Shown: positions 19,066-62,229 of the stretch, one piece after another
How the letters are laid out: every line of letters starts with the position of its first letter
Position numbering within the stretch: position 1 is the first letter of the stretch
Assembly: GCF_002902905.1 (NCBI RefSeq)
Contig: NZ_CP026124.1
Coordinates: forward strand, 4,898,001-4,962,000
Origin: Achromobacter sp. AONIH1
GTDB taxonomy: Bacteria; Pseudomonadota; Gammaproteobacteria; Burkholderiales; Burkholderiaceae_B
Length of the DNA stretch: 64,000 nucleotides
Direction: 5' to 3'
Program-made: the position numbers and the translations under genes
Notes under the pieces: model-generated
Seen by the model: the letters and a program-made list of their open reading frames with translations, nothing else
What the model was told of the DNA's origin: nothing
Databases searched by the model: none

Positions 19066-20469
19066 ATGACCCAGCCTTCCGCCACGCTCGCCGCCATCCT
19101 GCGCGCCATACCCCGGCGCTATCGGAGCACGGCCCGGCCCGCCCCTGGCGCCGTCGCGCAGCCCGATCCGGACAGCCCCATCGCGCGGCTGGCGCGCGCC
19201 ATCGAACCGCTGCAGGCCGCCGACGCTTCTGCCCAAGCGCCCGATGGCGCAGTGCGCCACGCGTTCATCGACGCGCTGGCCGCGCTCATCGACGAGGCCC
19301 TGCGCCCCGATGCCGGCGACCCCGTGTTCCAGGGCGCGCTGCAGGAATACCGCCACCCCGTCGTCCGTGAATACCTGGAACTGCGCCGCCAGGAAACCGC
19401 CGACCAGCGCCAGCTGCGCACCGCCATCAACACCGTCGCGCATCCGGCCAAGCCGCCGCGCCTGGCGCCCGGCGCGGGACGCGAATCCCTGGCGCGGCTG
19501 CACGCCGAGGTTTCTTCGGGATCATGGCAACAGGCGGCGCAGACCGCGCAAGCGTTGCTGAATCTACCGCAGGTCCACACCGACGCGGACCTCGCGTCCG
19601 CGCTGCGCGCGCTGCTCGACGCCCCGGCGCTCGCCCGCCTGCAACGGCTCGACGCGCTGGCGTCGGACCCGCGGGTGCGGCAGTACGAAGCGATCCGCGA
19701 GAAACAAGGCCCGCGCTCCGGCAGCGAAGAGGCCAATGCGCAAGGCCTGCTGGCCAGGCAACGCGGCGTCGCGGTCGAGATCCTGGCCGCGCGCGCGCTC
19801 GAAGCGCTGGCGCGGCATCTGGACCAGGCGTCCCCTTCCGAATCACGCCATGGCGACGCATCGCCCGGCTACCGCGTGGTGACCTCGCTGCGCGTGCCGT
19901 CGGCCCTGGCCGCCAATGCCGATCGCGCCAAGACCGAGTGGGACGCGGTGCTGCTGCGCCGCGCCAACGACAACGCGAGCGAGACGCCGCTTTGGGATGT
20001 CTGCCTGCTCATCGAGGCCAAGGCCTCCGTGGACGCCGCCACGACCGACCTGCCGCGCCTGTTGCGCGGCTTGCGCCTGCTGGCCCAGGCCGAACCGGAC
20101 GCGTCCTATTCCTGCGCCACGCAGCAAGGCCAGGTCCGGCTGCGCGGCGCCTCGCTGCGCGCGCTGCCGCAGGAAATGGAGAATCTGGCCGACGCCGTGC
20201 TGTACTGCTGCGACGCGCCCGACGAAACCTGGACGCCGGCGCTCAACGCCGCCAGCCGCATGCAGCTGCTGTCCGCGCCGCCCAGCCTGGCCTACGCCGC
20301 CCTGCTGGCCGCCGGCGAGCCGGCCGACGCGCGCATGCTCGAACCGCTGTGGCAGGACCTGCGGCAGAACCCGCGCTGGCAAGCCATGCTGAATCTGGGC
20401 GCCACCCGCCGGCTGGCGCGCGAGCTGATGGTGCATCCCGACGATCTGCTTGCGTCGATCAACGCTTGA
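19066..20469 (+). CDS. Uncharacterised protein with PD-(D/E)XK-like segment, 467 aa
   Basis: No family was recognised over the full length. The first 250 residues are Ala/Arg-rich and helical (LDALASDPRVRQYEAIREKQGPRS). Near residues 288-320 the sequence reads AKTEWDAVLLRR...DVCLLIEAKAS, i.e. an Asp on a strand followed by hydrophobic-E-x-K, the hallmark of PD-(D/E)XK nucleases, then a helix LPRLLRGLRLL. The ATG at 19066 is chosen over an upstream extension with poor content. Its 3' end overlaps the HpaB-like gene on the other strand by 11 bases. Confidence 0.65.
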   Translation: MTQPSATLAAILRAIPRRYRSTARPAPGAVAQPDPDSPIARLARAIEPLQAADASAQAPDGAVRHAFIDALAALIDEALRPDAGDPVFQGALQEYRHPVVREYLELRRQETADQRQLRTAINTVAHPAKPPRLAPGAGRESLARLHAEVSSGSWQQAAQTAQALLNLPQVHTDADLASALRALLDAPALARLQRLDALASDPRVRQYEAIREKQGPRSGSEEANAQGLLARQRGVAVEILAARALEALARHLDQASPSESRHGDASPGYRVVTSLRVPSALAANADRAKTEWDAVLLRRANDNASETPLWDVCLLIEAKASVDAATTDLPRLLRGLRLLAQAEPDASYSCATQQGQVRLRGASLRALPQEMENLADAVLYCCDAPDETWTPALNAASRMQLLSAPPSLAYAALLAAGEPADARMLEPLWQDLRQNPRWQAMLNLGATRRLARELMVHPDDLLASINA

Positions 20470-48259: not shown

Positions 48260-49498
48260 TCAATTTCCCCGTCGAACGCCTTGAATCCGCGCGCGGCTGG
48301 CCGCTATCGCGATGCTCATCCGCCGCACCGTGGCGCGACGAATCGGAAACGCCTCGGCGCGTCCGGCGAAGGCCGCCGCCTGCTCAACCATCCGGTCGAG
48401 CGTGGCTTCTGCCATGGGCATGCCTACCCCGCCCTCCCTGGCCAGCCGCAGCAAGTGATCCCGTCCCACCGCGGCGCCTTCGCCGCACACATCCATGTGA
48501 TGCTGTCCCATCGGTCCGTGGCTGAACGTCAGGTCGAATGCGGGCGCCAATCGCCAACGCCGATCCTGCCCGAGACGCCATGCAAAGTTCTTCGGATGAT
48601 CGTCCTGGTTGTGAAACAACACGTTGAAGACGGCACGCGCATAGGCCTTCTCGACCTCGCGCTCATCGCGCGTCAACAACCGGGTGGCCCGCAGCAAGGT
48701 CGTGTAGTCCGTGCTGCCCGGCATGCGGAAATCCACCTGCAGCAGGCCCGCCAGGCTATGCACGGGCACGCGCATGCCTCGTTCCCGGTCGAAGCGCGCC
48801 ACGCCAAAGGCGGCAAGCCTGGACGACAGATCGAACAAGGCGCTGGCTGGCACCTCCAGGCCGCAATCGCGGGCCAGCTCGGCATACAGCTGTTCGACGG
48901 CGCATACCTCCTTATGCTCGCCCTGCGCCGGAAACTTCACCAACCAGGGAACGCCGGGCGCATCGCCGCGCGTGCTGACGTGACCGGTCGCGGCGTCGTG
49001 CTGCACCAAGGCCTTGGGCCGCGCGCCTTGCGGAGACCCGCCGGTCAGCGCCAGTTCGCGCAAGGCAACGCCCGCCTCTCCAGCCAGAGCCCGCTCGCTT
49101 TCCCGGGCCAGGGCCAGCAGGCTCCAGTCGGGCTCCACGGCATGCGGATCGGCCGCCGGCACGAAGCGCAGCGCGCCCATGGCGCGGTCCCCGATGAATG
49201 CCAGCCGATCCAGGGGCCCAGGATGACGCAATCCCTGGCGGCGGAACAAACGATCCATCAGCAGCAGCCCCCAGCCATCGGGCAGGCTGTCCGCCATCAG
49301 GCCGGGCAACCGATGCAGATAAGGCGGAAAATCCCCGTAGGCCGGAGCGCGCAGCTTCAGATGCAGCGGCGACAGCTCCAGTCCCTGCGCCAGGGCCTCG
49401 GACGCGTATTCAAACAGCAGCGTGGCGCCGTCATCGGCCAGGAGCCCCAGGAGCCAGTCCTCGCCCCAGCCACAGTAATGAACGGCCAGCTGCTTCAT
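48260..49498 (-). CDS. hipA: HipA-family serine/threonine kinase, 412 aa
   Basis: The HipA kinase core is visible: LTGGSPQGARPKALV (phosphate loop region), WLVKFPAQGEHKEVCAVEQLYAELARDCGLEVP, catalytic FNVLFHNQDDHPKNFAW and metal-binding DLTFSHG. The N-subdomain HRLPGLMADSLPDGWG is present. These kinases phosphorylate glutamyl-tRNA synthetase or other targets and cause dormancy; the antitoxin HipB lies upstream with an ATGA overlap. All core residues look intact. Confidence 0.9.
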   Translation of the reverse strand: MKQLAVHYCGWGEDWLLGLLADDGATLLFEYASEALAQGLELSPLHLKLRAPAYGDFPPYLHRLPGLMADSLPDGWGLLLMDRLFRRQGLRHPGPLDRLAFIGDRAMGALRFVPAADPHAVEPDWSLLALARESERALAGEAGVALRELALTGGSPQGARPKALVQHDAATGHVSTRGDAPGVPWLVKFPAQGEHKEVCAVEQLYAELARDCGLEVPASALFDLSSRLAAFGVARFDRERGMRVPVHSLAGLLQVDFRMPGSTDYTTLLRATRLLTRDEREVEKAYARAVFNVLFHNQDDHPKNFAWRLGQDRRWRLAPAFDLTFSHGPMGQHHMDVCGEGAAVGRDHLLRLAREGGVGMPMAEATLDRMVEQAAAFAGRAEAFPIRRATVRRMSIAIAASRARIQGVRRGN

Positions 49499-49806
49499 GT
49501 CTTGCTCCGACGAGGCGCCCGTTGTCGTTGCCCGGCGGATTCCGCCTGCGCCATCTGGGCGATGGATTGGCGCCTGAGCACGAACAGATCCTGCAGCTCA
49601 TCCACGAGTCCCAAGGCCTGCGTCACGCGGATCAAGGTCTCCAGCGATGACTGGCCGCTGCCTTCCAGCTTGCGCAACGCGCCGAGCGACAGGCCGGCCA
49701 TCTGCGCCAGCTCGCGCTGAGGCAGACCCTGGGCCAACCGCTGGATGCGCAGCCGTGAGCCCAAGGCCCGCAGGATCTCGGCGGTGGATGCCAAATTAAA
49801 TGACAT
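49495..49806 (-). CDS. hipB: HipB-type XRE antitoxin, 103 aa
   Basis: XRE helix-turn-helix LRIQRLAQGLPQRELAQMAGLSLGALRKLEG followed by SSLETLIRVTQALGLVDELQDLF. Its stop overlaps hipA's start (ATGA). The tail QRQRAPRRSKT is basic, unlike the HipB of E. coli. The promoter side (49807-49870) is AT-rich with repeated TTTAT elements, suited to its own binding. Confidence 0.85.
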   Translation of the reverse strand: MSFNLASTAEILRALGSRLRIQRLAQGLPQRELAQMAGLSLGALRKLEGSGQSSLETLIRVTQALGLVDELQDLFVLRRQSIAQMAQAESAGQRQRAPRRSKT

Positions 49807-50069: not shown

Positions 50070-52142
50070 ATGAATCAGGAACTGTTCCTGCGCCGCGCCA
50101 CCAAGGTCCACGTCCCCGTGGGTTCTGGCGGCGCCACGCGCGCCCAGGTCGCGTCGGCCATCCAGGAAATCGCGGCGTTCCACTGCATCCTGTCCGAGTC
50201 GGTGATCGAGCGGATCGGCATGCTGTCCGCCGATGAACTCGCGCGCTGGCTGCGCGACATGCTTGGCGTGCTGCGCCGCCGGGTCGGCGCGCACGTGCAG
50301 CACCAGCCGTTCTATCCGGGCTTCCCCGAGCAGGTGCTGAAAGCCTCGAAGGCCGAGCTGTACCTGACGGCCGTCATGCATTACCTCACGCTGCGCCGCC
50401 TGCCGGCGCACGAGCATGCCCGCCCGCCATTGCTCGAGGGCAAGCTCGTGCCCTGGCTCATCGAACTGGGCCGCGTCGCTGAATTCGAGTCGCTGCTGGC
50501 GCCGCTGGTCTCGTCGCGCACCTCGCTGTCCGAGGTGGACGCCGCCGATGTTGCCTGGTTCATCCGGCAATACCGCGGCGATGTCTTCCGCCTGCTGCCC
50601 GGGGACGTGCCGTTCCGCGAGATCCGCGCGCTGGTTGGCGGCGCGCTGGTCCAGCACGTGGCGGGCGATGCGCGGGTGGACGAATTCCTGGATCGCAACG
50701 TCGAGACCGCGACCGACGCGCTGCGGCTGGCGGTGGCCCTGAGCGGCGGAGATGTGTCGCTGACCACGGCGACGACACGCTTCGCGCCGATGAAGCGCGG
50801 CTTGCGCCGCCTGCTGCTGCGCCTGCTCGATCGCGCGCCCAACGCAGTGGAAGACGTGATGCGCCACGCCGAGCGCTGGAAGCGCCTGGCCGAAGTGCTG
50901 CACCCGGGCGACTATGCCGACAAATACCCGCGCGCCCTGGCGGCCATCACGGCGGCGCGGCGCAACGACGCGCCGGCCTCGTTCGGGTCGCGCGTCGAGA
51001 CGCTGCTGGCCCAACGGCACATCGCCGCGCTCACGCCCCTGCTGCAACAACGTCCCGGCGAATTCGCGCGCCGGCTGGATGTGACCTTGCGCCGCTCGAC
51101 CGAACCGGACGCCGTGCTGGACGCATTCGAAACGGTGGCGGCGCAAGCGTCCACGCCGATCCTGCTGCAGGTGCTGGCCCAGACCCGGGCGCCCCGCCCC
51201 CTGCCCTTGCGGGCCTTCACGCCCAAGGGCGCACTGGCCAAGGTCTACGGCATCCAGGATCGCCGTGAGCCGCTGGCGCCCGAAGTGCTGGCGCGCGCGG
51301 CCCGGATCTGCCAGGACGCGCTCGTCAAGCGCTTCGCCTCGCTGCCGCCGCTGGGCCGCTGCTTCGTCGACCCCGCGCTGCGCGACTACATCGTGCCGCT
51401 GGCGCAGCGCGCCGCATCGAAGTCATTGCGCACGCTGGTGTGCGGCAGTTGCCTGCCGCTGCCGGACACGCGCTTCATCCGCCTGTTCCTGTGGTGGAAG
51501 AACGGCCGCGCGCGCACGGACATCGACCTGTCCGCCGCTTTCTTCGACGCCAATTTCTTGTTCATGCAGACGGTCGCGTACTACAACCTGAAGGGCTTCG
51601 GCGGCTACCACAGCGGCGACATCGTCGACGCCCCGCAAGGCGCCTCGGAGTTCATCGACCTGGACATCGACGCCCTCGTCGAGAAAGGCATCCGCTACGT
51701 CGTCACGTCCATCAACTCCTACACCCGGCAGCCGTATTGCGACCTGCCCGAGTGCTTCGCCGGCTGGATGGCACGCGCCGATCTGGCCTCGGGCGAAGTG
51801 TACGAGCCACGCACGGTGGTCGACCGGATCGACATCGCGTCGGACACGCAGATCTGCCTGCCTTTCGTGATGGACCTGCAGGAACGCCGCGTGATCTGGG
51901 CCGACCTGGGGCTGACGTCCACGCCGCGCTGGAACAATGTGCGGAACAATCTGAGCGGGGTGTCCTTGATGCTGCGGGCATTGGTGCATACGCCCCGGCC
52001 GGATCTGGAGACGCTGTTTGATCTGCATGTACGCGCGCGGGGGGAACGGGTGGAAACGCCGCAGCAGGCCGAGACCGTATTTGCGCCTCACCAGGGGATT
52101 ACGCCGTTCGATGTGGACGTGATTCGGTCACGGTTTCTTTGA
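50070..52142 (+). CDS. TerD-domain protein with long helical N-terminus, 690 aa
   Basis: Residues 1-440 are helical and unassigned (DAVLDAFETVAAQASTPILLQVL). Residues 460-670 match TerD: LFLWWKNGRARTDIDLSAAFFDANF, FGGYHSGDIVDAPQGASEFIDLDIDALVEKGIRYVVTSINSY and VIWADLGL; TDIDLSA is the Ca-site strand. TerD proteins are part of tellurite/phage stress complexes that pair with helical ATPase-like partners. The gene is unusual in having the TerD domain fused to a large N-terminal part. It stands alone. Confidence 0.75.
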   Translation: MNQELFLRRATKVHVPVGSGGATRAQVASAIQEIAAFHCILSESVIERIGMLSADELARWLRDMLGVLRRRVGAHVQHQPFYPGFPEQVLKASKAELYLTAVMHYLTLRRLPAHEHARPPLLEGKLVPWLIELGRVAEFESLLAPLVSSRTSLSEVDAADVAWFIRQYRGDVFRLLPGDVPFREIRALVGGALVQHVAGDARVDEFLDRNVETATDALRLAVALSGGDVSLTTATTRFAPMKRGLRRLLLRLLDRAPNAVEDVMRHAERWKRLAEVLHPGDYADKYPRALAAITAARRNDAPASFGSRVETLLAQRHIAALTPLLQQRPGEFARRLDVTLRRSTEPDAVLDAFETVAAQASTPILLQVLAQTRAPRPLPLRAFTPKGALAKVYGIQDRREPLAPEVLARAARICQDALVKRFASLPPLGRCFVDPALRDYIVPLAQRAASKSLRTLVCGSCLPLPDTRFIRLFLWWKNGRARTDIDLSAAFFDANFLFMQTVAYYNLKGFGGYHSGDIVDAPQGASEFIDLDIDALVEKGIRYVVTSINSYTRQPYCDLPECFAGWMARADLASGEVYEPRTVVDRIDIASDTQICLPFVMDLQERRVIWADLGLTSTPRWNNVRNNLSGVSLMLRALVHTPRPDLETLFDLHVRARGERVETPQQAETVFAPHQGITPFDVDVIRSRFL

Positions 52143-52344
52143 CTCGGGAATACTCAATCAACCCTGCTTGCGCGCCATCCGGCTCCATGGACAAGAATTG
52201 CACGCGAACCGGAGGAAGGCACCTGTGCCTGCGACTCATGTCCGTAGCGGCACCCCACTGCCCGTCAAGGAAACCAGGAACGCCACCATCCCTTGGCACG
52301 CCGGGGGACGCGGCCGGCCACTTGGCCTGATGGCGCACGGGCTA

Positions 52345-52797
52345 TCACGCACGCACTTTCACGACCGTCGACTGACGCCCGGCCTGGGGCGTGCCACGCA
52401 ACGGCGGAAAGCCCGCGTGCAGCAAACGCTCGAACTCATCATAGTGGGCAACAAAAATGGAACCAAAGACCAGGGGTAAATTCTCCAGTTCGGGAATGCT
52501 TGGCAGATTGATGTTTCCATTCTGATGACCTTGGACATGCGCCTTCAAACGGCTGACTGGCGTGATGTCCTTGCCCCAATAAACCGGATACCACTGAGGG
52601 TAGCCGGGTATGGGAGCGAGGCCGGTCCTGATGGGTGTAGGGGAACTGGCCCATATTCCGTAGACCGCGCCACATGACTGCTCAATGGGAAAGGACCTGC
52701 CCAGGTTGATCGAGCCATAAACGCAGTCATGAACGGCGAAATTGCGCTTCAAGGCAAAGTCTTTGAGAAATTCCGGTACCAAGGAGGCTTCGGGCAT
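52345..52797 (-). CDS. Hypothetical protein, possibly GIY-YIG-like, 150 aa
   Basis: Not firmly recognised. A conserved-looking core reads CGAVYGIWASSP...YPVYWGKDITPVSRLKAHVQGH, similar in layout to a YxxG strand followed by a lysine/arginine strand and His-rich helix of GIY-YIG nucleases, though the catalytic Glu is not clear. It lies at the start of the lower-GC accessory stretch, downstream on the minus strand of a decayed LysR gene. Confidence 0.5.
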   Translation of the reverse strand: MPEASLVPEFLKDFALKRNFAVHDCVYGSINLGRSFPIEQSCGAVYGIWASSPTPIRTGLAPIPGYPQWYPVYWGKDITPVSRLKAHVQGHQNGNINLPSIPELENLPLVFGSIFVAHYDEFERLLHAGFPPLRGTPQAGRQSTVVKVRA

Positions 52798-52808
52798 TCG
52801 GCGGGCTC

Positions 52809-52985
52809 CAAACTCGGGATGAGCCGATCACTGTAACTGCTCAATGCGATGCCCAACAGTCCTCGACACCCGCTGGCGGCGGACTTGACGCCGTCACGCG
52901 CCTGCCTCAAGGCCTCGAATATTCGCGTCGCCCGCTCCAGGAACACCTTCCCGGCCGGGTCGTGACGCCTCAACCGGAAGACGGC
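52809..52985 (-). pseudogene. LysR linker/effector fragment
   Basis: The minus frame reads RLRRHDPAGKVFLERATRI then FEALRQARDGVKSAASGCRG and LLGIALSSYSDRLIPSL, the segment just after the HTH of BenM/CatM-type LysR proteins (RxLxxTxAGxxFLExAxxIL ... AxGxxGxLxIGxxxS). Both the HTH and the rest of the effector domain are missing. It lies directly behind the BKACE gene on the same strand. Confidence 0.7.
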
Positions 52986-52997
52986 TGCATAGGCACG

Positions 52998-53936
52998 TCA
53001 GAACTTCACGGCCGCAGCTCCCTTGAGCGACAGAATCTCTCTCGCTTCATCGGGCGTCGCGATTTCGTGCCCCAGACTTTCAAGCAGTTCACGCACCTTG
53101 CGTACCTGCTGCGCGTTCGATTCCGCCAGTTGCCCTCGAGAGATCTGCAGCGAGTCTTCAAGCCCGACACGCACGTGGCCACCCATCGTTGCCGCTGCTG
53201 TGGCTAGACTCATCTGACTGGCCCCCGCACCCAGCACGGACCACTGGTACTGGTCGCCGAACAGCTTGTCGGCCGTGCGCTTCATGAAGACCAGGTTCTC
53301 CAGGTCAGCACCGATACCGCCCAAAATGCCCAGGACGAACTGAATGAAGATCGGCGCCTTGAACATACCGGAGTCCAGGCAGAACTTCAGGTTGTATAGG
53401 TGTCCCACGTCATAGCACTCGTGCTCGAACTTGACGCGGTGCTCCTGGCCTAGTTCTTCGGCCACCATCCCGATGTCGCGGAAGGTGTTGCTAAAGATGT
53501 AGCTGTCCGATTCCCGCAGGTACGACTCTTCCCAGTCAAACTTCCACTTTTTATAACGCTGCGCCAGGGGATGCATCGAGAAGTTCATGCTACCCATGTT
53601 CAACGAGCACATCTCGGGCGAAAAACGCTTTGCGGGCGCGATGCGCTCCGCCACGGTATTGCGAAGGCTGCCGCCTGTAGAGAGGTTGACCACCGCGTTC
53701 GTCGACGCCTTGATCGAGGGCAGGAAGCCGAGGAAGTGCTCGGAGTCAATCGACACAGAGCCGTTCTCCGGATTGCGTGCGTGCAGGTGAAGCACGGCGG
53801 CGCCCGCCTGCGCCGCATCAATGGCCTGGCGCGCAATGTCCTCGGGGCGATAGGGCAACGCGTCCGACATGGTCGGCGTGTGGATGGCGCCGGTCACGGC
53901 ACAGGTGACGATGATCTTGCGAGAGGGCTTGGACAT
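52998..53936 (-). CDS. BKACE (DUF849)-family 3-keto-acid cleavage enzyme, 312 aa
   Basis: TIM-barrel enzyme with VLHLHARNPENGSVSID, carrying the two metal His, NLSTGGSLRN (substrate loop), MFKAPIFIQFVLGILGG and HVRVGLEDSLQISRGQLAESNAQQV with the metal Glu. BKACE enzymes cleave beta-keto acids with acetyl-CoA to give acetoacetate plus an acyl-CoA, first shown for 3-keto-5-aminohexanoate. ATG at 53936 is set by MSKPSRKIIVTCAVTG. It is the last intact gene of the TetR-controlled cluster. Confidence 0.85.
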   Translation of the reverse strand: MSKPSRKIIVTCAVTGAIHTPTMSDALPYRPEDIARQAIDAAQAGAAVLHLHARNPENGSVSIDSEHFLGFLPSIKASTNAVVNLSTGGSLRNTVAERIAPAKRFSPEMCSLNMGSMNFSMHPLAQRYKKWKFDWEESYLRESDSYIFSNTFRDIGMVAEELGQEHRVKFEHECYDVGHLYNLKFCLDSGMFKAPIFIQFVLGILGGIGADLENLVFMKRTADKLFGDQYQWSVLGAGASQMSLATAAATMGGHVRVGLEDSLQISRGQLAESNAQQVRKVRELLESLGHEIATPDEAREILSLKGAAAVKF

Positions 53937-53965
53937 GATGGGCTGCCATGTATGAACAATGGAAC

Positions 53966-54403
53966 TCAGGACTCGACAGGCTGGCGGCGCCACACCAGCT
54001 TGATGACGGTTTCGACACCGTCTTGCATTTGCGGTGCGGTCGTCAAGACCGCGTCGCCCTGCTCGAAGCTCAGTGCGCGGCGAAGCGCCGTCCCCACCCA
54101 GTTCGGATAGGTGGAGACGTCGACCCAATGCGAGATCCAACCGGCTTCCAGCGTGAAGCGTCCGGCATAGGCAATGGAGGACTTATAGGCCTGTGCACGC
54201 TGCGCTTCCGGCGCGGCCTGCCGGTCGCCGTCAAGCCGCTCTCGACCGTCGTGAGTGATGAGCGCCATCATGCGCCCGTCGTCGCCGTAGTGGATGACGC
54301 CCGACGGCCGTGCGCCGTAGACGTCGTACAGGCGCTCCCCCCGGGGGCCGACGGCATACGCCTCTCCCAGGAACCAGGTTCCAGTCAGGTCATTCGCATT
54401 CAT
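53966..54403 (-). CDS. Lipocalin-like domain protein, 145 aa
   Basis: Starts MNANDLTGTWFLGEAYAVGPRGERLYDVYGARPSGVIHYGDDGRMMALI, the opening of the lipocalin_5 (PF13924) pattern GTW.L....G..SG.L.YT.DG.M. No signal peptide. Such small beta-barrel proteins in catabolic operons may bind a hydrophobic intermediate. 29-base gap to the BKACE gene. Confidence 0.8.
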   Translation of the reverse strand: MNANDLTGTWFLGEAYAVGPRGERLYDVYGARPSGVIHYGDDGRMMALITHDGRERLDGDRQAAPEAQRAQAYKSSIAYAGRFTLEAGWISHWVDVSTYPNWVGTALRRALSFEQGDAVLTTAPQMQDGVETVIKLVWRRQPVES

Positions 54404-54437
54404 GCGGGTACTCCAAGTTTGAGGGTTCGTAGGTTGG

Positions 54438-55205
54438 TCAGGGCAAGACAGCCACTGCGCGGACCCACCCCGCCGAAGCGGCACGGATCTTCACGGGGAA
54501 GCAGATCACCTGAAAGCCCGTGGAGGGCAACAGGTGCAAGTTGCTCACCTTCTCCATCTGGAAGTAGCCGATCTCCCGACCCGCCTTGTGGCCTTCCCAG
54601 ATCAGCGACGCATCTTGGGTTTCGCGGAAGCGCCGGGCGGTGTGGCTGAACGGGGCATCCCAGGACCAGGCATCGGTACCTACGACCCGGACGCCACGTT
54701 CGGTCAGGTACAGCGTCGCTTCGCGTCCCATGCCGCAGCCGCTGTCCAAGTAATCATCTTGGCCGTAGCGCGCCGCGGCGCCCGTGTTCACCAGCACGAC
54801 GTCCAGGGGTTGCAAGTCATGGTTGATGCGCGTCAGTTCATCCTCGACCTCCCTGGCACGTACCACATGGCCGTCCGGCAGGTGCCGGAAGTCCAGCTTG
54901 ACGCCGGGCCTGTAGCACCAGTCCAACGGCACTTCGTCGATGGTCGCGGCGCGCTCGCCGCGATTCATCGTCGATGCGTAGTGCCACGGCGCGTCCATGT
55001 GCGTCCCGTTGTGCGTCGACAGGTCCAGACGCTCGACTGCCCACGCCTCGCCGTCGGGGAGGTCTTCGGGGCGCAATCCAGCAAAAGGCTTGGCCAGAGC
55101 CTCGAAGGTCTCCTGGTGGTTCTGATACCGGATCTTTGGGCCATTCCCCGGCCGGTCCACTGGCAGGTCGTTCTCGATGGCGACGGACAGATCGATAAGT
55201 CTCAT
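54438..55205 (-). CDS. Cyclase/kynurenine-formamidase-family metal hydrolase, 255 aa
   Basis: Contains STHNGTHMDAPWHY, the HxGTHxDxPxH metal motif of the cyclase family (PF04199), preceded by AWAVERLDLS and followed by VRVVGTDAWSWDAPF. These enzymes hydrolyse or dehydrate ring amides and lactones. First intact enzyme after the frameshifted Bug gene. The pathway substrate is unknown. Confidence 0.85.
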   Translation of the reverse strand: MRLIDLSVAIENDLPVDRPGNGPKIRYQNHQETFEALAKPFAGLRPEDLPDGEAWAVERLDLSTHNGTHMDAPWHYASTMNRGERAATIDEVPLDWCYRPGVKLDFRHLPDGHVVRAREVEDELTRINHDLQPLDVVLVNTGAAARYGQDDYLDSGCGMGREATLYLTERGVRVVGTDAWSWDAPFSHTARRFRETQDASLIWEGHKAGREIGYFQMEKVSNLHLLPSTGFQVICFPVKIRAASAGWVRAVAVLP

Positions 55206-55251
55206 TGAGGCAGGTCCTTGGAGAAATGAGGTCGAGAGTTCGTGAACGGCG

Positions 55252-56219
55252 CTACTGTCTGGTCAGACCGATGGAGCGCACCAGTTCCGGCCAGGCACGG
55301 TTTTCCTTCGCCAGGAATTCCGATGCCTCTGCGACCGAACCTCCGGCGGCCTCGCTTCCGTTGTCTTGAAGTGTCCGGATCACGTCGGGCTGCTTGAGGA
55401 TGGCGTTGATTTCTGTATTAAGGCGAGTCACGACTTCCTCCGGTGTGCCAGCGGGTGCCACCAGCATGAACCACAAAGAGAAGTCAACGCCAGCCAGCCC
55501 CTGCTCCTCGAAGGTGGGCACATCCGGCAGCGCCTGCGCCCGCTGGCGAGTCGACACGGCCAGGGCTTTGACCTTGCCGGACTGAACGAAAGCCCGGACA
55601 GTGCCCACGTTGTCACACAGCGCTTGCACGCTCCCCCCAGCAAGTCGGTGACAGCGGGCGCCGCGCCCTTGTAGGGGATGTGGTTCACCCTGATGCCGGC
55701 AGAGCGCGCGAACAGCTCGGCGCAGATGTGTTGAGGTGACCCTTCTCCGGCATTTGCGATATTGAGTTCGCCGGGTTTGCTCTTTGCGCCTGCGACGATC
55801 TCCTTGAGCCCGTCTTTCGATACGCCGGGGACAACCAGCACCAGGGCCGCCGACGAAACCTTCACGATGGGAGCGAAAGCGCGGGCGGGCTCATACGGCA
55901 TCTTCTGGAAGAGGCTCGGATTGACGGCCAACGGCCCAAGTCCTGCCAAAAGGAGCGTGTAGCCATCGGCCGGGGATTTAGCCACGGCGTCCGATCCAAT
56001 GATGCCGTTGGCCCCCGCCTTGTTCTCGACGACGACGGGCTGAGTCAGACGGGCGCCGAGTTTCGCGGCCAACAGCCGAGCGACATTGTCTGTTCCCCCG
56101 CCAGGCGCATAGGGCACCACCAGGCGAATGGGCCGCTCTGGATACTGGGCTATTGCGGGCAAAGCCGCCAAGGACAGGGTCAAGCCAAGCACGGCGAACC
56201 GTAGCGCGAACCTCAGCAT
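55252..56219 (-). pseudogene. Bug (TctC)-family binding protein, one frameshift
   Basis: The N-terminal reading (MLRFALRFAVLGLTLSLAA, IRLVVPYAPGGGTDNVARLLA, VENKAGANGIIGSDAVAK, VNHIPYKGAAPAVTDLLGG) and a C-terminal reading from about 55629 (VQALCDNVGTVRAFVQSGKVKALAVSTRQRAQALPDVPTF) join if one G is added at the six-G run 55633-55638 (C-run on the plus strand). Then the protein would be full length with a signal peptide. Either a homopolymer mutation, a phase-variable switch or a sequence error. It leads the catabolic cluster. Confidence 0.75.
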
Positions 56220-56259
56220 GTTTGTCTCCTCAACAAGCAGGTATGGGTTGCGCTAATTT

Positions 56260-56279
56260 TTAGTTATTCGAATGACTAA
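56260..56279. promoter_or_regulatory. TetR operator 1 of the catabolic cluster
   Basis: TTAGTTATTCGAATGACTAA, a 20-bp dyad with one mismatch around TTCGAA, 41 bases before the Bug gene start. Pairs with the site at 56437. Confidence 0.75.
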
Positions 56280-56436
56280 GTCGATATGGTAAAAACCCCT
56301 AGAAGGCATAGGCGGTGGGCGTTGGCGACATGGCAGCCAAATCGCCAATGTGAAGGCAATGTGCTGCGATGGTCCGTTGAACTGCCTCTAGTCACAGTTG
56401 GAGACCACTAGACGAACGCGGGGTGGTATTTCATCA

Positions 56437-56456
56437 TTAGTCTTTCGAATAACTAA
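56437..56456. promoter_or_regulatory. TetR operator 2
   Basis: TTAGTCTTTCGAATAACTAA, same half-site TTAGT.xTTC/GAA...ACTAA as operator 1, 94 bases before the TetR ATG. The pair flanks the divergent promoter region 56220-56549, which otherwise shows no gene. Confidence 0.75.
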
Positions 56457-56549
56457 TCGTGTGGCGAGCCCACCCGATCAGGCAGGAGACAAACCCATCA
56501 CTGCCGACACGCGCATACCCCCTTCTGTGAGAGGCACAACAGCCAAGCT

Positions 56550-57320
56550 ATGAGTCCGAAGATCGATCCAGACCACATGACAACTGCGGCCGAGCAACCT
56601 CAACGCCGACGGCGCAAGAGCGACGCGCGCGAAAGCATCCTGAACGCGGCCGAACGCCTTTTCGGCGAACTTGGCTTCACGGGCTGTTCGTTGCGCAACG
56701 TAGCCGACAGTGCCGGGGTCAACCAAGGCATGATCCATTACTTCTTTCGAAGCAAAGAAGCCTTGTTCCAGGAGACGTACCTGCGCTGCGGCTCACCACT
56801 GGTCGAAGAACGCATGCGACTGCTCGACACGGAAGAAGCCGCGGCGAAGGGGGCGCCAATCCCGGTAGAGCGCCTCATCGAGATTTTTTTGGCACCCGCA
56901 TTCCGGTTGGCAACGAGTGGTGATAGCGGACGTGCGTTTCTGCGCATGCAGGCTCATCTGCAACTCGACGGCACGCGCTTTGGCCACGAACTGCGCCAGC
57001 GCCTCTACGATGAATCGTCAATGCGCTTCGTCGCGGCGTTCGCGCGCAGCCTCACCGACCTGTCCCGCGAAGACGTGTCCTGGCGCTTCATGTTCATGCT
57101 CGGCGCCTACCAATATGCTCTTGCAGACACAGGTCGCATCGAGGTGATTTCCGACGGGCTCTGCTCCGCCAGCGACTTTGCCTGCTCTCTGAGGCAAATC
57201 GTGCCCTTTCTTAGCGCTGCCATGCGCTCACCCCCAATCATTGCCGGCGCATCCAAGGATCAGCTGGATTTTTGCAAGGCGTCTACAGCAACGGCAGGCA
57301 GGGTCTCGAATCAAGAGTGA
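56550..57320 (+). CDS. TetR-family regulator, 256 aa
   Basis: HTH: DARESILNAAERLFGELGFTGCSLRNVADSAGVNQGMIHYFFRSKEALFQETYLRC, then a helical ligand domain with FLRMQAHLQLDGTRFGHELRQRLYDESSMRF. It is divergent from the Bug-cyclase-lipocalin-BKACE cluster over two operators and is its likely repressor. Its stop overlaps the truncated end of a decayed integrase at 57311, placing a rearrangement joint there. Confidence 0.9.
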   Translation: MSPKIDPDHMTTAAEQPQRRRRKSDARESILNAAERLFGELGFTGCSLRNVADSAGVNQGMIHYFFRSKEALFQETYLRCGSPLVEERMRLLDTEEAAAKGAPIPVERLIEIFLAPAFRLATSGDSGRAFLRMQAHLQLDGTRFGHELRQRLYDESSMRFVAAFARSLTDLSREDVSWRFMFMLGAYQYALADTGRIEVISDGLCSASDFACSLRQIVPFLSAAMRSPPIIAGASKDQLDFCKASTATAGRVSNQE

Positions 57321-57701
57321 ATCTTTTCCAACTTCAGCCTGCTGAAGTCCTTTTCCGAGTGTCGGTCATAGACCGACCTTTGCATCGCCTTGGTCGAGTC
57401 GGCCAACTTGGCTTCCTCGACATACCTGTTCGCCCACGCCCCAAAGGTCAGCTCCGCGGCAGCCTTCAGGCGCATCTCCGCCTTGCCGCGCGAAGGGCTG
57501 TCGCCGCGCTCAACGCTGCGCGCCCCCAGGCCCGAGTCGTATTGCCTATCACCAAGGTTTCTCGACGCGTCCCGATTCGGTAGTCGTACCGGAAGCTGAT
57601 GACCCCGGTACGCGTCACGGCTGCGTAGAAGCCGCTGATCGGTGATCTTGTAGATCTTTTCCCGTGGGCTTGAGCGCCTTCAATTTCAAGTCGGTAAGCA
57701 T
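57311..57701 (-). pseudogene. Decayed P4-type tyrosine integrase, N-terminal part
   Basis: The minus strand from ATG 57701 reads MLTDLKLKALKP, then in shifted frames KIYKITD, GFYAAVTRTGVISFRYDYR and IGTRRETLVIG, then ELTFGAWANRYVEEAKLADS and TKAMQRSVYDRHSEKDFSRL, ending KLEKIHS-stop. That is the arm-binding and core-binding part of a P4-type island integrase broken by at least three frameshifts. The catalytic domain is gone where the sequence runs into the TetR gene. It matches the first part of the integrase at 60309 in the same order. Confidence 0.8.
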
Positions 57702-57727
57702 CACATCCCTCAACGAAACCAGAGACC

Positions 57728-57758
57728 TTGGTACCGTCAAGTCATTTGACGGTACCAA
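57728..57758. repeat. Inverted repeat with TACCGTCA arms beside the decayed integrase
   Basis: TTGGTACCGTCAA (57728-57740) and its exact complement (57746-57758) surround a 5-base spacer, 27 bases before the integrase start. TACCGTCA also occurs at 58011-58018 and 60484-60491 and, inverted, at 60420-60427. Candidate integrase or excisionase arm sites. Confidence 0.6.
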
Positions 57759-57922
57759 TCCTGGTCGTTCAAGGTCCGGCTTTGTGATGCCACCAACAAT
57801 ACCGTCGGTTCCGACGGGCTTTGCTGAGGCGGCTTGAGATGCCGTGGAACGCTAACTGCCTGTCAGGGCTGGATTTTCATGCGTATTCCGGACGGCATGA
57901 AACGACCTGACATGACGTTAAT

Positions 57923-57938
57923 TTATTCCCACTCGATC
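57923..57938 (-). repeat. attachment-site core resembling the 3' end of guaA (att2)
   Basis: Read on the minus strand this would spell the codons for IEWE-stop, exactly like the end of guaA. 13 of 16 bases match 60637-60652 and all three differences are synonymous for GuaA. It marks an island boundary created by insertion at guaA. Confidence 0.75.
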
Positions 57939-58195
57939 ATCAACAGGCCGCCTAAACCCGTGTGGTTAAGGGGTTTGGCTGTGATTAACATAGGGCTCTA
58001 CCGCCGCTTTTACCGTCAGTAAGTTACGCCCTTTGGGGCAAGATTCGGGCGATTTGCGAAGCGCTGATCTATTATCAATCAACTTCAATGATACCGAATA
58101 GGCGACCGGACTTCAGGCTATACCCCACTGTACTGTCCAGGAAATTACCGGTAACAGCGGGGGCCTAGGTTGTCAGCTCGTTGGAAGGCCGTTAC
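57939..58195. other. Non-coding island end (257 bp)
   Basis: No gene seen. It holds a TACCGTCA copy at 58011-58018 and an AT-rich stretch. It is the left end of the newer element, up to the IS boundary; the element's body is missing. Confidence 0.55.
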
Positions 58196-58211
58196 GGACC
58201 TGCCCCCAGAC

Positions 58212-59033
58212 TTAGTACGGCACCGACATAGAGTCCAGAGTTAAAAACCGTTGTTGCCGGTGCGCCTGAGCAAACTGCTCCGGCGTTAAGTATCCCAGCG
58301 CGCTATGCGGGCGTTCGGTGTTGTACTCGACGCGCCAGTCTTCGATCAAGGATTTGGCTTGGCGCAGCGACATGAACCAATGCTCATTCAGGCATTCATC
58401 GCGGAATTTTCCGTTGAAGCTCTCGATGTATGCATTCTCCACGGGCTTGCCTGGTCTGATGAACGACAGCTTCACGCCGACCTGATAGGCCCAAGCATCC
58501 AAGGCTCTGCCAGCAAACTCCGGGCCGTTGTCCACGGTGATGGATTTGGGCAACCCACGCAGTTCCGCAAGCCGTTGCAGCACCTGCGCCACCCGCAATC
58601 CCGGCAGTGATGTATCGACCTCGATGGCAAGACACTCGCGCGTGTAGTCATCGACGATGTTCAAGCACCGGAACCTGCGGCCATAGGCCAGACCGTCGGA
58701 CACGAAGTCCATCGACCAGCTCTGATTCGGCGCCGTCGCAACGGGACGAACTACCCGTTCTGCGGGAGCGATGCGCTTGCGGCGACGCTTACGAACGCTC
58801 AAGCCGGCTTGGCTGTAAAGCCGCCAGACCCGCTTGTGATTCGTCTGCCAGCCTTCACGGCGAAGCAGAATATGGATGCGCCGATAGCCGTAGCGTCGCT
58901 TGAGCGCTGCCATCTCCTTCATGCGCTCGGTCAATGCCACGTCGCCCGTACGCTTACTTTCATAAGCGAACAGCGACCGGGAAATGCCTACCAGCCCGCA
59001 GGCCCGGGTGATACCCATGCCGCGCTCGGTCAT
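58212..59033 (-). CDS. IS3-family transposase OrfB (DDE)
   Basis: DDE integrase core of the rve type: QSWSMDFVSDGLAYGRRFRCLNIVDDYTRECLAIEVD (first Asp), LPKSITVDNGPEFAGRAL (second Asp) and VENAYIESFNGKFRDECLNEHWF (Glu). The frame is open further upstream (VTSPQAKREAVRTLMTERG) to overlap orfA, so the OrfAB fusion by -1 shifting is expected. All three catalytic acids seem intact. Confidence 0.9.
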   Translation of the reverse strand: MTERGMGITRACGLVGISRSLFAYESKRTGDVALTERMKEMAALKRRYGYRRIHILLRREGWQTNHKRVWRLYSQAGLSVRKRRRKRIAPAERVVRPVATAPNQSWSMDFVSDGLAYGRRFRCLNIVDDYTRECLAIEVDTSLPGLRVAQVLQRLAELRGLPKSITVDNGPEFAGRALDAWAYQVGVKLSFIRPGKPVENAYIESFNGKFRDECLNEHWFMSLRQAKSLIEDWRVEYNTERPHSALGYLTPEQFAQAHRQQRFLTLDSMSVPY

Positions 59034-59071
59034 CAACGTTCTGACCGCTTCGCGTTTGGCCTGCGGGCTTG

Positions 59072-59332
59072 TTACTTTCGGCTCAAAAGGTCCTGAAGCG
59101 CAGCCTTGTCCAGCATCGATTCAGCCAACAGCTTCTTGAGCTTGTTGTTCTCTTGCTCCAGCTCCTTCAGTCGCTGGGCGTCCGAAACGGTCATACCGCC
59201 GAACTTCGCCTTCCAGTTGTAGTAAGTGGCCTCCGAGATCCCGTGCTTGCGGCACAGTTCGGCAACCTTGGCCCCTGCCTCGGCCTCCTTCAGCACCCCG
59301 ATGATCTGTTCTTCCGTAAATCGTTTCTTCAT
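59072..59332 (-). CDS. IS3-family transposase OrfA, 86 aa
   Basis: HTH-leucine zipper protein: MKKRFTEEQIIGVLKEAEAGAKVAELCRKHGISEATYYNWKAKFGG, then LKELEQENNKLKKLLAESMLDKAALQDLLSRK, typical of the IS407 group of IS3. It binds the IS ends and regulates transposition. ATG after AACGGCA. Confidence 0.9.
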   Translation of the reverse strand: MKKRFTEEQIIGVLKEAEAGAKVAELCRKHGISEATYYNWKAKFGGMTVSDAQRLKELEQENNKLKKLLAESMLDKAALQDLLSRK

Positions 59333-59392
59333 TGCCGTTCCTTTGTGAACGGACTCTACATCGATTTCGTACTAACCACAGGGAGCAGGTCA

Positions 59393-60309
59393 ATGCAACT
59401 GTCAGCGTTGTAGCGTTACGGCAGGACAAATTTGGAACCGGCCGCACAGGTATGCAACGCCACGAAAATGTCGAGCGCCTGGCGTGAGAGATAAACTACG
59501 TGCGGCCTCCGTCCCTTCATCCGTTGCTTTGGAATCGTCCAGGTAGCCTTCTCAAAATCGACCTCGTCCCAAGTCGCCTCGATCAGTTCACTCTTTCGCA
59601 CCAACGTCAGCAAGATCATGCGCAACGCTAGCCGGATCGTCGGATAGGTGGCCACACACTCCAATTGCTTGGACATTAGGTGAATTTCCTGCGGAGACAA
59701 GGCACGATCCTTCGGCACGAAAGTCGCAATGGAAGCCGCATCTACGCTATCAGCAGGGTTTGCCACCTTCTCCCCATGCAGATTCGCATAACCATATATC
59801 TGCTTCACGAGGTCCCGAATTTGAACGGCGGTGGCTGGTGCGCCTCGCGCTTTCACGCGCAAACATAGAGCGCGTAGATCCTCCCCATGGATTTCGCCAA
59901 GAAGGCGTTTGTTGAACGCCGGCAAGATGTCGCGATCCAGTACGCTCTTTCGCATCGAACGGGTCGACTCGGCCATCGTGGCCCCATAAAGCCAACGGGT
60001 GGCATGATCGCTGAAGGTCTCGGTCTCCGGCCCACGTCCCTTCTCTCGTTGCTTCTGTAGCGCTGGCGAAGTGCCCTCGCCCAGCAGCCTCCTGGCGCGC
60101 CGCAGTTTTTCTCGGGCTTCGGCTAGTGAAATTCCTCCGAAGCCGTAACGGCCTATGGTCAACGTCTCTCGTCGGTCATTGATCCGGTAGTCGTATCGGA
60201 AGGTAATGGTGCCTTTCGGCGAAACGATGGCGTACATGCCATCGCGATCGGCGACCTTGTAGAGGATCGCGCGGGGTTTCAAGTTCCGCAGGGAAAAGTC
60301 TGTAAGCAC
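59393..60309 (-). pseudogene. P4-type integrase with nonsense codon, cut by the IS
   Basis: From a GTG at 60309 (VLTDFSLRNLKPRAILYKVADRDGMYAIVSPKGTITFRYDYR) the gene reads through the core-binding and first catalytic part (LTLVRKSELIEATWDEVDFEKATWTIPKQRMKGRRPHVVYLS) to SKFVLP, then a TAA at 59416 where the family has Ser, after which RYNADSC still fits the family for 7 residues before the IS begins at 59392. The HxxR and nucleophile-Tyr part is missing entirely. So both a nonsense mutation and the IS event disabled it. Confidence 0.85.
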
Positions 60310-60406
60310 GGGAATAGTCTCCTGATTGAAACGGCCGATTGCCGTCACCTATCACGAGACCTACATGCCCTTGCGGGCCCGCATAAATCCTGATGTCTAA
60401 GAGGAA

Positions 60407-60431
60407 GAACTACCGTCGCTGACGGTAGTTC
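60407..60431. repeat. Inverted repeat with TACCGTC arms upstream of the inner integrase
   Basis: GAACTACCGTC-GCT-GACGGTAGTTC, perfect 11-bp arms, 98 bases before the integrase start, matching the outer integrase's repeat in its core TACCGTC/GACGGTA. Another TACCGTCA lies at 60484-60491. Confidence 0.6.
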
Positions 60432-60545
60432 TTTCGTGGCTACGCCAACCCCAGTCCAAAGAGCTTGCGCACCCCGTCAAATTTACCGTCAGCTTCGCTG
60501 CCTGGAAGCCCTTAAAGGTAAATTACTCACACGAAATAGTCTTTA

Positions 60546-60614
60546 AAATCAACAATCTAGAAGAATCACATTCTTGTTGATGATCTTTTGAGAGACCTCC
60601 TAGACTGTTGATTT
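60546..60614. repeat. Long inverted repeat next to the guaA end
   Basis: AAATCAACAATCTAG (60546-60560) and CTAGACTGTTGATTT (60600-60614) are complementary with one mismatch; inside lies AAGAAT-CAC-ATTCTT (60561-60575). It may end guaA transcription or be part of the island end. Confidence 0.6.
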
Positions 60615-60636
60615 ATAAGGGAAAAACTGCTTCCCC

Positions 60637-60652
60637 TCACTCCCACTCAATC
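60637..60652 (-). repeat. Attachment-site core at the 3' end of guaA (att1)
   Basis: Contains the last guaA codons (IEWE-stop). It matches 57923-57938 in 13 of 16 positions. Known integrases of the P4 type use this end of guaA as their target, which leaves the gene complete after insertion. Confidence 0.8.
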
Positions 60653-62229
60653 GTCGCAGGCGGCTTGCTCGACACGTCATACACCACCCGGTTAATCCCG
60701 CGGACCTCATTAATAATCCGCGAAGAAACCCGAGCCAGCAGCGGATGCGGCAGCGGCGCCCAGTCGGCCGTCATGAAGTCAAACGTCTGCACCGCGCGCA
60801 GCGCGACGACATACTCATACGTCCGCCCATCGCCCATCACCCCTACCGACTTCACCGGCAGGAACACGGCAAACGCCTGCGAGGTCAGCTCGTACCAGGT
60901 CAGGCCGCTGGCCTCGTCCTTGGTGTTGCGCAGCTCTTCGATGAAGATCGCATCGGCGCGACGCAGCAGTTCGGCGTACTCGTGCTTGACCTCGCCCAGG
61001 ATCCGCACGCCCAGGCCAGGACCCGGGAACGGATGACGGTAGACCATCTGCGGCGGCAGGCCCAGGGCCACGCCCAGTTCGCGGACTTCGTCCTTGAACA
61101 GTTCGCGCAGCGGCTCCAGCAGCTTCAGGTTCAGCGTGTCGGGCAGGCCGCCGACGTTGTGGTGCGACTTGATCGAAGTGGCCTTGCCGGTCTTGGCGCC
61201 GGCCGATTCGATGACGTCGGGGTAGATGGTGCCCTGGGCCAGCCACTTGGCGCTTTTCTGCTTGCCGGCCTGGTCCTGGAACACTTCCACGAATTCGCGG
61301 CCGATGATCTTGCGCTTGGCTTCGGGATCGGCCACGCCGGACAGCTTGCCCATGAACTGGGCGGTCGCGTCGATGTGGATGATCTTGACGCCCATGTTCT
61401 CGGCGAAGGTCTGCATGACCTGCTTGCCTTCGTCCAGGCGCAGCAGGCCGTGATCGACGAAGACGCAGGTGAGCTTGTCGCCGATGGCCTTGTGGATCAG
61501 GGCCGCGGCCACCGACGAGTCCACGCCGCCGGACAGGCCCAGGATGACTTCGTCGTCGCCGACCTGCTCGCGGATGCGGGCCACGGCTTCGGCGACGTAG
61601 TCGGGCATGTTCCAGTCGCCCTGGCAGCCGCAGATCTCGTTGACGAAGCGCGACAGCATGGCCTTGCCCTGCACGGTGTGCGTGACTTCGGGGTGGAACT
61701 GCACGGCGTAGAACTTGCGGTCTTCGTCGGCCATGCCGGCGATCGGGCAGGACGGCGTGGACGCCATCAGCTTGAAGCCCGGCGGCAGCGCGGTGACCTT
61801 GTCGCCGTGGCTCATCCAGACCTTGAGCATGCCGTGGCCTTCGTCCGTCGTGAAGTCGGCCAGGCCGTCGAGCAGCTTGGTATGGCCGTGCGCGCGGACT
61901 TCGGCGTAGCCGAATTCACGGTGGTCGGAGAAGCTGACGACGCCGCCCAGCTGCTGCGCCATGGACTGCATGCCGTAGCAGATGCCCAGCACCGGCACGC
62001 CCAGCTCGAACACGGCGTGCGGCACGCGCATGGAGCCTTCTTCGTAGGCCGAGGCGTGGCTGCCGGACAGGATGATGCCCTTCAGGCCCTGGGCCAGTTG
62101 TTCGCGCACGAAGGCGTCGTCGACGTCGCCCGGGTGGACTTCGGAATAGACGCCGGCTTCGCGGACGCGACGGGCGATCAGTTGGGTGACTTGCGAACCG
62201 TAGTCCAGGATGAGGATGCGCTGGTGCAT
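60637..62229 (-). CDS. guaA: GMP synthase (glutamine-hydrolysing), 530 aa
   Basis: N-terminal class I amidotransferase: [17 protein letters not shown], the nucleophile Cys in [18 protein letters not shown], and [11 protein letters not shown]-terminal ATP-PPase: [18 protein letters not shown] and the end [11 protein letters not shown]. It makes GMP from XMP with ATP and glutamine. Length matches E. coli. Its 3' end is the island attachment site. guaB precedes it on the same strand. Confidence 0.98.

Follow-up and report, generated by a model that had tools for sequence, protein, structure and literature searches.

The stretch of DNA described here comes from Achromobacter sp. AONIH1 (assembly GCF_002902905.1, contig NZ_CP026124.1) and carries guaA, followed by the remains of two P4-type integrase genes, each of which reads leftward from a short core sequence. 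The window, i.e., the whole stretch of 64,000 nucleotides that was analysed, corresponds to C1:4898001-4962000 of a genome that consists of a single contig of 6.65 Mb. An earlier note, made from the letters alone, had interpreted the locus as two tandem scars of islands inserted at guaA, each with a dead integrase. We call the integrase next to guaA the inner one and the integrase behind the second core the outer one; genomes (G) and loci (L) used for comparison carry our own numbers. The features are collected in Table 1.

Table 1. Features at the guaA locus, given in positions of the window.
Feature	Position	Strand	Details and basis
Probable foreign block	52150..57320		BKACE enzyme, lipocalin-like protein, cyclase, split TctC, tetR-type regulator; G+C 58-65%
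Outer integrase remnant	57321..57701	-	residues 1-156 of 438, three frames, internal gap; alignment to G020
Integrase-side end of outer island	57702..57922	-	arm-type heptamers at 57732, 57748, 57800; ~76% identical to stretch behind guaA in G020
Second core: far end of inner island, junction with integrase end of outer island	57923..57937	-	pattern match, alignments
Far end of inner island	57938..58196	-	final ~95 bp conserved; arm-type heptamer at 58011; aligned with 15 other loci
Insertion sequence interrupting inner island	58197..59392	-	two reading frames, HTH_Tnp_1 and rve; Pfam, comparison with genome copy
Inner integrase	59416..60348	-	310 codons, catalytic C-terminal part missing; reading frame, Pfam, relatives
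Integrase-side end of inner island	60310..60636	-	arm-type heptamers at 60411, 60421, 60484; heptamer scan, similar lead in close relatives
guaA-side core, final 15 bp of guaA	60637..60651	-	one of two pattern matches in the genome
guaA, insertion target	60637..62229	-	intact reading frame of 530 amino acids; Pfam GMP_synt_C/GATase

A degenerate pattern for the guaA end, ATYGAGTGGGARTRA, which excludes cores with a TAG ending, has exactly two matches in the 6.65-Mb genome, starting at 60637 and 57923, and its reversed control has none. The distance between the two cores is 2,717 bp. As the earlier note had stated, the 16-mers at 57923-57938 and 60637-60652 agree in 13 of 16 positions, and none of the three differences alters an amino acid in the guaA frame. 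GAGTGGGA is present on the minus strand of the window at the two cores only; the bare motif has one other match in the window, at 19936 on the opposite strand. With a looser 12-mer core one extra match appears in the genome, at 372606, beside an unrelated integrase. This 12-base match is less than 250 bp away from an integrase-like gene with 21% identity (G000:C1:372606-373578 for the two together, outside the window) and perhaps lies within that gene's own frame.

The inner integrase contains the domains Arm-DNA-bind_3 and Phage_int_M, and of the Phage_integrase profile only positions 5-79 of 172. Its start codon is probably the GTG at 60307-60309, and the start lies ~327 bp from the core; the distance is ~320-330 bp in L039, L041 and L042, and the lead in guaA-linked relatives measures ~200-340 bp. 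The frame closes at a stop codon where relatives (L042) read through, and 23 bases past this stop begins an insertion sequence, which we take to be of the IS3 type. A second copy in the genome is 99.75% identical to it, with one 3-base gap. No clear target duplication was found beside either copy, which at this site fits a deletion adjoining the insertion sequence. Only 259 bp separate the insertion sequence from the second core, not enough for the missing integrase part. The four closest full-length relatives of the inner integrase (85-87% identical) are all located just behind guaA, and in one scan of named genomes guaA was found just upstream in 18 of the 23 related loci. Apart from the integrase and the insertion sequence, the inner remnant comprises the 327-bp lead and the 259 bp at the far end.

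The ~95 bp to the right of the core at 57923 match far ends in G035 (84%) and G010 (81%). Of 268 family genomes, 14 contain a pattern derived from the last bases of the far end and none its reversed control, although one of the 14, L111, has little in common with the others beyond the core. Sixteen far-end copies align, that of the window included, and share a near-invariant TGACGGTAAAAGCGACGGTA, located 61-81 bp from the core in the window. Far-end copies were recorded at 57923-58020 and in L039, L042, L056, L149, L154, L155, L161 and L162, with further copies in L165, L166, L169, L174, L189, L191, L192 and L194. The second core is thus placed at a conserved island far end and not in an unrelated conserved gene, the possibility that the earlier note had named as a refutation. 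Both ends of an island of this kind can be seen in L042 (9700-14860), where a complete 5-kb island has the order guaA-core-integrase-AbiEi/AbiEii-partial HsdM-far end-core and an intact integrase 85% identical to the inner one. In L039 guaA and an intact integrase, 87% identical to the inner one, are followed by the far end 10.5 kb on. Since both ends of the inner remnant match those of these islands, it represents an island of the L042/L039 type that has lost its cargo. The AbiEi/AbiEii pair and the partial HsdM make the L042 island a small one of the defence type. Its record bears the title Mycobacteriaceae, yet the GuaA end in it is 85% identical to that of the window, so the bin may be mixed.

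Most far-end copies hold a frame of 22 codons, roughly MSITANPFNHAGLRGLLMIEWE, that closes in the core. We considered this frame as a gene and rejected it: in two of the 16 copies it is broken by a deletion and one copy lacks a start codon. The copies differ by 42 synonymous and 49 nonsynonymous changes (expected synonymous share 0.27), a synonymous excess that is weak, the sequences being related. To judge from the sequence, the stretch of ~95 bp is probably an integrase-binding end and not a gene. A far-end core also lies at G030:C5:469987 (L104, L154), 35 kb away on the upstream side of guaA; the frame next to this core looks ParA-like by eye and does not encode an integrase.

The outer integrase is far less complete. 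The stretch 57321-57915 is 74-76% identical to the DNA located directly behind guaA in the congener G020, including the lead and the start of the integrase. The integrase start is found 222 bp from the core, compared with 220 bp in G020. The two readable pieces of the remnant are 74% and 77% identical to the intact G020 integrase (220 bp after guaA) vs. 32% and 67% identical to the inner integrase, which shows that outer and inner genes are different integrases and not the products of a duplication. Homology stops at 57321, abutting the stop codon of the tetR-type gene (56550-57320), and not at 57311, where the earlier note had set the edge. That note had also described the two integrases as lying at a similar distance from their cores; each has the spacing of its own family, but the distances are 222 bp for the outer and ~327 bp for the inner gene. 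Relatives linked to guaA, which it had suggested to look for, exist for both: in the 18 loci mentioned above for the inner integrase, and in G020, at matching spacing from the core, for the outer one.

The island ends are also marked by an arm-type heptamer, GACGGTA/TACCGTC, which was first noticed in the far ends of relatives. It is present seven times in the 2,104 bp of island-end DNA (0.14 expected) vs. four times in the other 61,896 bp of the window.

Altogether, these data make us confident that two different islands with guaA-specific P4-type integrases inserted successively at the 3′ end of guaA and were then disabled and probably for the most part deleted. The tandem follows from the presence of two cores and two integrase branches, each with its own lead, and from the inner far end at the second core. 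The two captures proposed before are thereby corroborated, as is the loss of both integrases, seen in their domains, the stop codon, the broken frames and the comparison with relatives. Each integrase would have joined a circular island to the GAGTGGGA core and kept the guaA end intact, resulting in the order guaA-core-island 1-core-island 2. The inner integrase would then have been hit by an insertion sequence, and almost the whole cargo of its island was probably deleted next to that element, so that 2.7 kb is left. The outer integrase may have been lost to frameshifts and to a deletion ending at 57321, and the far core of the outer island would have been lost as well.

To place the locus in a wider frame, extra guaA-type cores were counted in the family with one pattern, which excludes cores with a TAG ending and other variants: 59 were found in 45 of 268 genomes. 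Thirty-three of them share a contig with a listed guaA, and all of these except one (G030) are located downstream on the same strand, 2.7-70.5 kb away; nine are on other contigs and 17 belong to genomes without a listed guaA place. Eight genomes from seven genera (G015, G040, G043, G113, G142, G161, G230, G236) have core pairs exactly 3,292 bp apart. The G040 unit contains a CR2-type transposase and Sul2, and these units look like GIsul2 with an internal core. The eight inner cores of the pairs were omitted, and 51 extra cores including that of the window were examined. A guaA-type integrase stands behind 16 of them, four intact and 12 broken (the window among the latter), and three of the four intact ones stand behind a GIsul2-type end. 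In L056, from Caballeronia, a far-end core is followed by a guaA-type integrase.

Directly behind guaA we read 39 integrases, 31 intact and eight broken. Eight of them are from the genus, window included (five intact), where the sample was the window and 40 of 41 other members with a GuaA match (G027 was left out). The other 31 (26 intact) were found in 80 genomes from outside the genus. Here, 150 rows listed among 244 matched genomes gave 108 places, of which ten were dropped (eight near contig ends, and G243 and G258) and 98 were typed; the first 80 were read, and four of these stretches are cut off by the end of the contig, so that an integrase may have been missed there. As integrases we counted sequences within 2-2.5 kb that resemble any of eight guaA-type queries; other types therefore count as absent. 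An open frame of at least 380 codons was called intact. A piece of 33 integrase residues, 2.6 kb behind guaA in G013, was not counted. Broken integrases thus make up 12 of 16 in the second position vs. 8 of 39 next to guaA (Fisher p = 0.0004, or p = 0.0009 without L191, a weak match among the 12), p values that serve only as a guide because the sequences are related. Among the named loci, which are separate from these counts, 15 of 18 guaA-adjacent integrases are intact.

No age can be read from the order guaA-core-integrase-core-integrase, because insertion at either core gives the same map, and the order alone does not support the earlier note's reading of the outer island as the older one. 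We nevertheless favour an older outer island, on the grounds that the outer integrase is more heavily decayed and that the family shows the same trend. The same two islands could have arrived in the reverse order, the inner one first and the outer one later at its far core; the resulting map would be identical, and streptococcal elements are described, in the available part of one report, as accreting at the attL or attR of a resident (PMC5357655). However, the outer integrase, with its three frames, internal gap and truncation, is far more decayed than the inner one with one stop and one insertion, and in the family second-position integrases are broken more often than guaA-adjacent ones, which makes the reverse order a minority possibility that still deserves attention. 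More generally, guaA might act as a one-way conveyor: each new island would insert at the guaA-side core and move the resident ones further out, and there the integrases of the latter would die. We put this forward tentatively, at somewhat less than even chances.

Other histories of the tandem appear less probable still. Composite transfer of accretions has been reported for other elements, as far as the source was available (PMC5704250), and the tandem might have been assembled elsewhere and then transferred to guaA in one step, as a composite island. Few observations speak to this. An outer-type remnant is present behind only one other of the 51 extra cores (L183, G176), and the far end there differs; this comparison covers the core, remnant and far end. 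We regard this scenario as improbable. A single island with an internal third core is very improbable: internal cores do exist, as the eight genomes with 3,292-bp pairs and the G040 unit with CR2-type transposase and Sul2 demonstrate, and GIsul2 is described, in the text at hand, with attL, attLR and attR (PMC9376610), but at our locus the second core has on one side a far end that also bounds the complete islands L042 and L039, and on the other a lead known behind guaA (G020), and the different branches of the two integrases indicate two islands. That the core at 57923, which is short, is a chance match can practically be dismissed: in 6.65 Mb the pattern matches at two places only and its reversed control nowhere, and island-end sequence lies on both sides of the core.

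Several observations weigh against the reading as two successive guaA islands, most of them concerning the outer one. The earlier note had suggested a third core left of 52 kb as the far end of the outer island. None was found: the degenerate pattern has no further match in the genome, a scan of the window with two mismatches gave five core matches (the two cores included) vs. 7.6 expected, and the minus strand of the window contains no further GAGTGGGA. The far ends of 49 loci, compared with 30.0-57.9 kb, gave no far-end match left of the outer remnant; one match of 22 bases was taken as chance. The outer island is therefore left with no far core. The block at 52.15-57.3 kb is tied to it solely by position and composition, and that it is the rest of the outer island is probable but unproven. 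The window lacks a hairpin that 26 of 40 congeners have behind guaA. The comparison set, with one genome per species, contains no strain with only one of these two islands. Five of the 23 relatives of the inner integrase have no guaA upstream in the stretch examined; L056 has a far-end core there and L058 a variant core, and in L044, L046 and L061 neither guaA nor a core was seen, with the contig of L044 ending 287 bp upstream.

Song and co-workers are said to have described guaA-associated genomic islands with P4-type integrases in 2012. In the accessible parts of two further papers guaA is a known island target (PMC7775301, PMC9376610). The integrase of such an island recombines sites with the GAGTGGGA core, integrase and att sites both being required (PMC9376610), and an alpA gene is reported near the integrase (PMC7775301). 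As far as these descriptions go, the locus shares with ICERspD18B and GIsul2 the guaA 3′ end, the adjoining P4-type integrase, the GAGTGGGA repeat and the intact guaA; unlike them, the two islands at our locus are both dead, with 2.7 kb left of one and an open-ended remnant of the other, and the three proteins scanned from the scar reading frames have only integrase and transposase domains. The inner remnant has kept the direct repeat containing GAGTGGGA on both flanks and the intact guaA end. GIsul2 in particular has, in the available text, the same core, a related integrase and several cores in a row (PMC9376610), but it is one active island with an internal core, whereas two integrases of different branches stand at two cores here. 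The GIsul2-type integrase of G040 is only 56% identical to the inner integrase, and the two transposase parts among the three scar proteins scanned are of another type than the CR2-sul2 unit. The closest intact parallel is G040, where a GIsul2-like island precedes an intact integrase of the inner type (73% identical).

Tandem accretion with decayed partners is known for integrative elements, and in CIME-type accretion a resident decays but keeps its att sites and an element with the same target integrates beside it, according to the portions available of two reports (PMC5704250, PMC5357655). These, in the parts seen, deal mainly with streptococci and other targets, whereas here the target is guaA in a high-G+C genome of the Burkholderiales type and both members are dead. 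A CIME, or decayed cis-mobilizable element, has lost integrase and transfer genes while keeping both att sites, at which another integrase can excise it. The inner remnant has both att sites and an integrase without its catalytic part; the outer remnant, lacking a far core, is not a full CIME. Among the papers listed for guaA or GMP synthase, titles and the beginnings of abstracts pointed to none that deals with this tandem, which is no proof of absence. The arrangement is of a known kind that is repeatedly seen in related bacteria; the doubly dead example is new.

The block left of the outer remnant differs in composition from its surroundings: the G+C content is 67.8% for the window and 0.63-0.72 over 48-52 kb, vs. 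0.55-0.65 over 52.15-60.6 kb. Matches to 52.15-57.4 kb exist in eight plasmid records, which account for 6-11% of this stretch at 71-78% identity. For 48.3-57.4 kb in 43 genomes of the genus, with six candidates scored per genome, the best match listed outside the own genome has 68% identity over 1.8 kb and belongs to the gene left of the block; short pieces of 85-100 bp reach 80-85% among the matches listed. Nothing in the genome corresponds closely to the first ~9.7 kb behind guaA of G023, whose GuaA is 98% identical; the best match has 70% identity over 446 bp. Together with the missing hairpin this means that the native neighbour of guaA cannot be placed. In the block a gene for a TctC-type binding protein (55252-56219) is broken into two frames, which match profile positions 1-158 and 162-274; decay has thus reached the cargo block as well. 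Before this gene and the divergent tetR-type gene a 20-bp inverted repeat (56260-56279 and 56437-56456, 95%) surrounds TTCGAATAACTAA and is a possible operator pair. Directly left of the low-G+C block, 50070-52142 encodes a protein of 690 amino acids with no Pfam match; genes located elsewhere in six congeners are 67-69% identical to this one at the DNA level. Just outside the block is also a HipA/HTH (HipBA-like) gene pair (48260-49806), which has no close match in the genus among the matches listed.

As a fossil of island accretion, with a protein gene as the target, the locus is easy to read: intact relatives identify the inner island at both of its ends and the outer one at one end. That second-position integrases are mostly broken and guaA-adjacent ones mostly intact makes the question of the entry side testable. 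If guaA does act as a conveyor, the position in an array would be a relative clock and the window would show the end state, with both members dead. Its main use is as a record of how islands pile up and decay.

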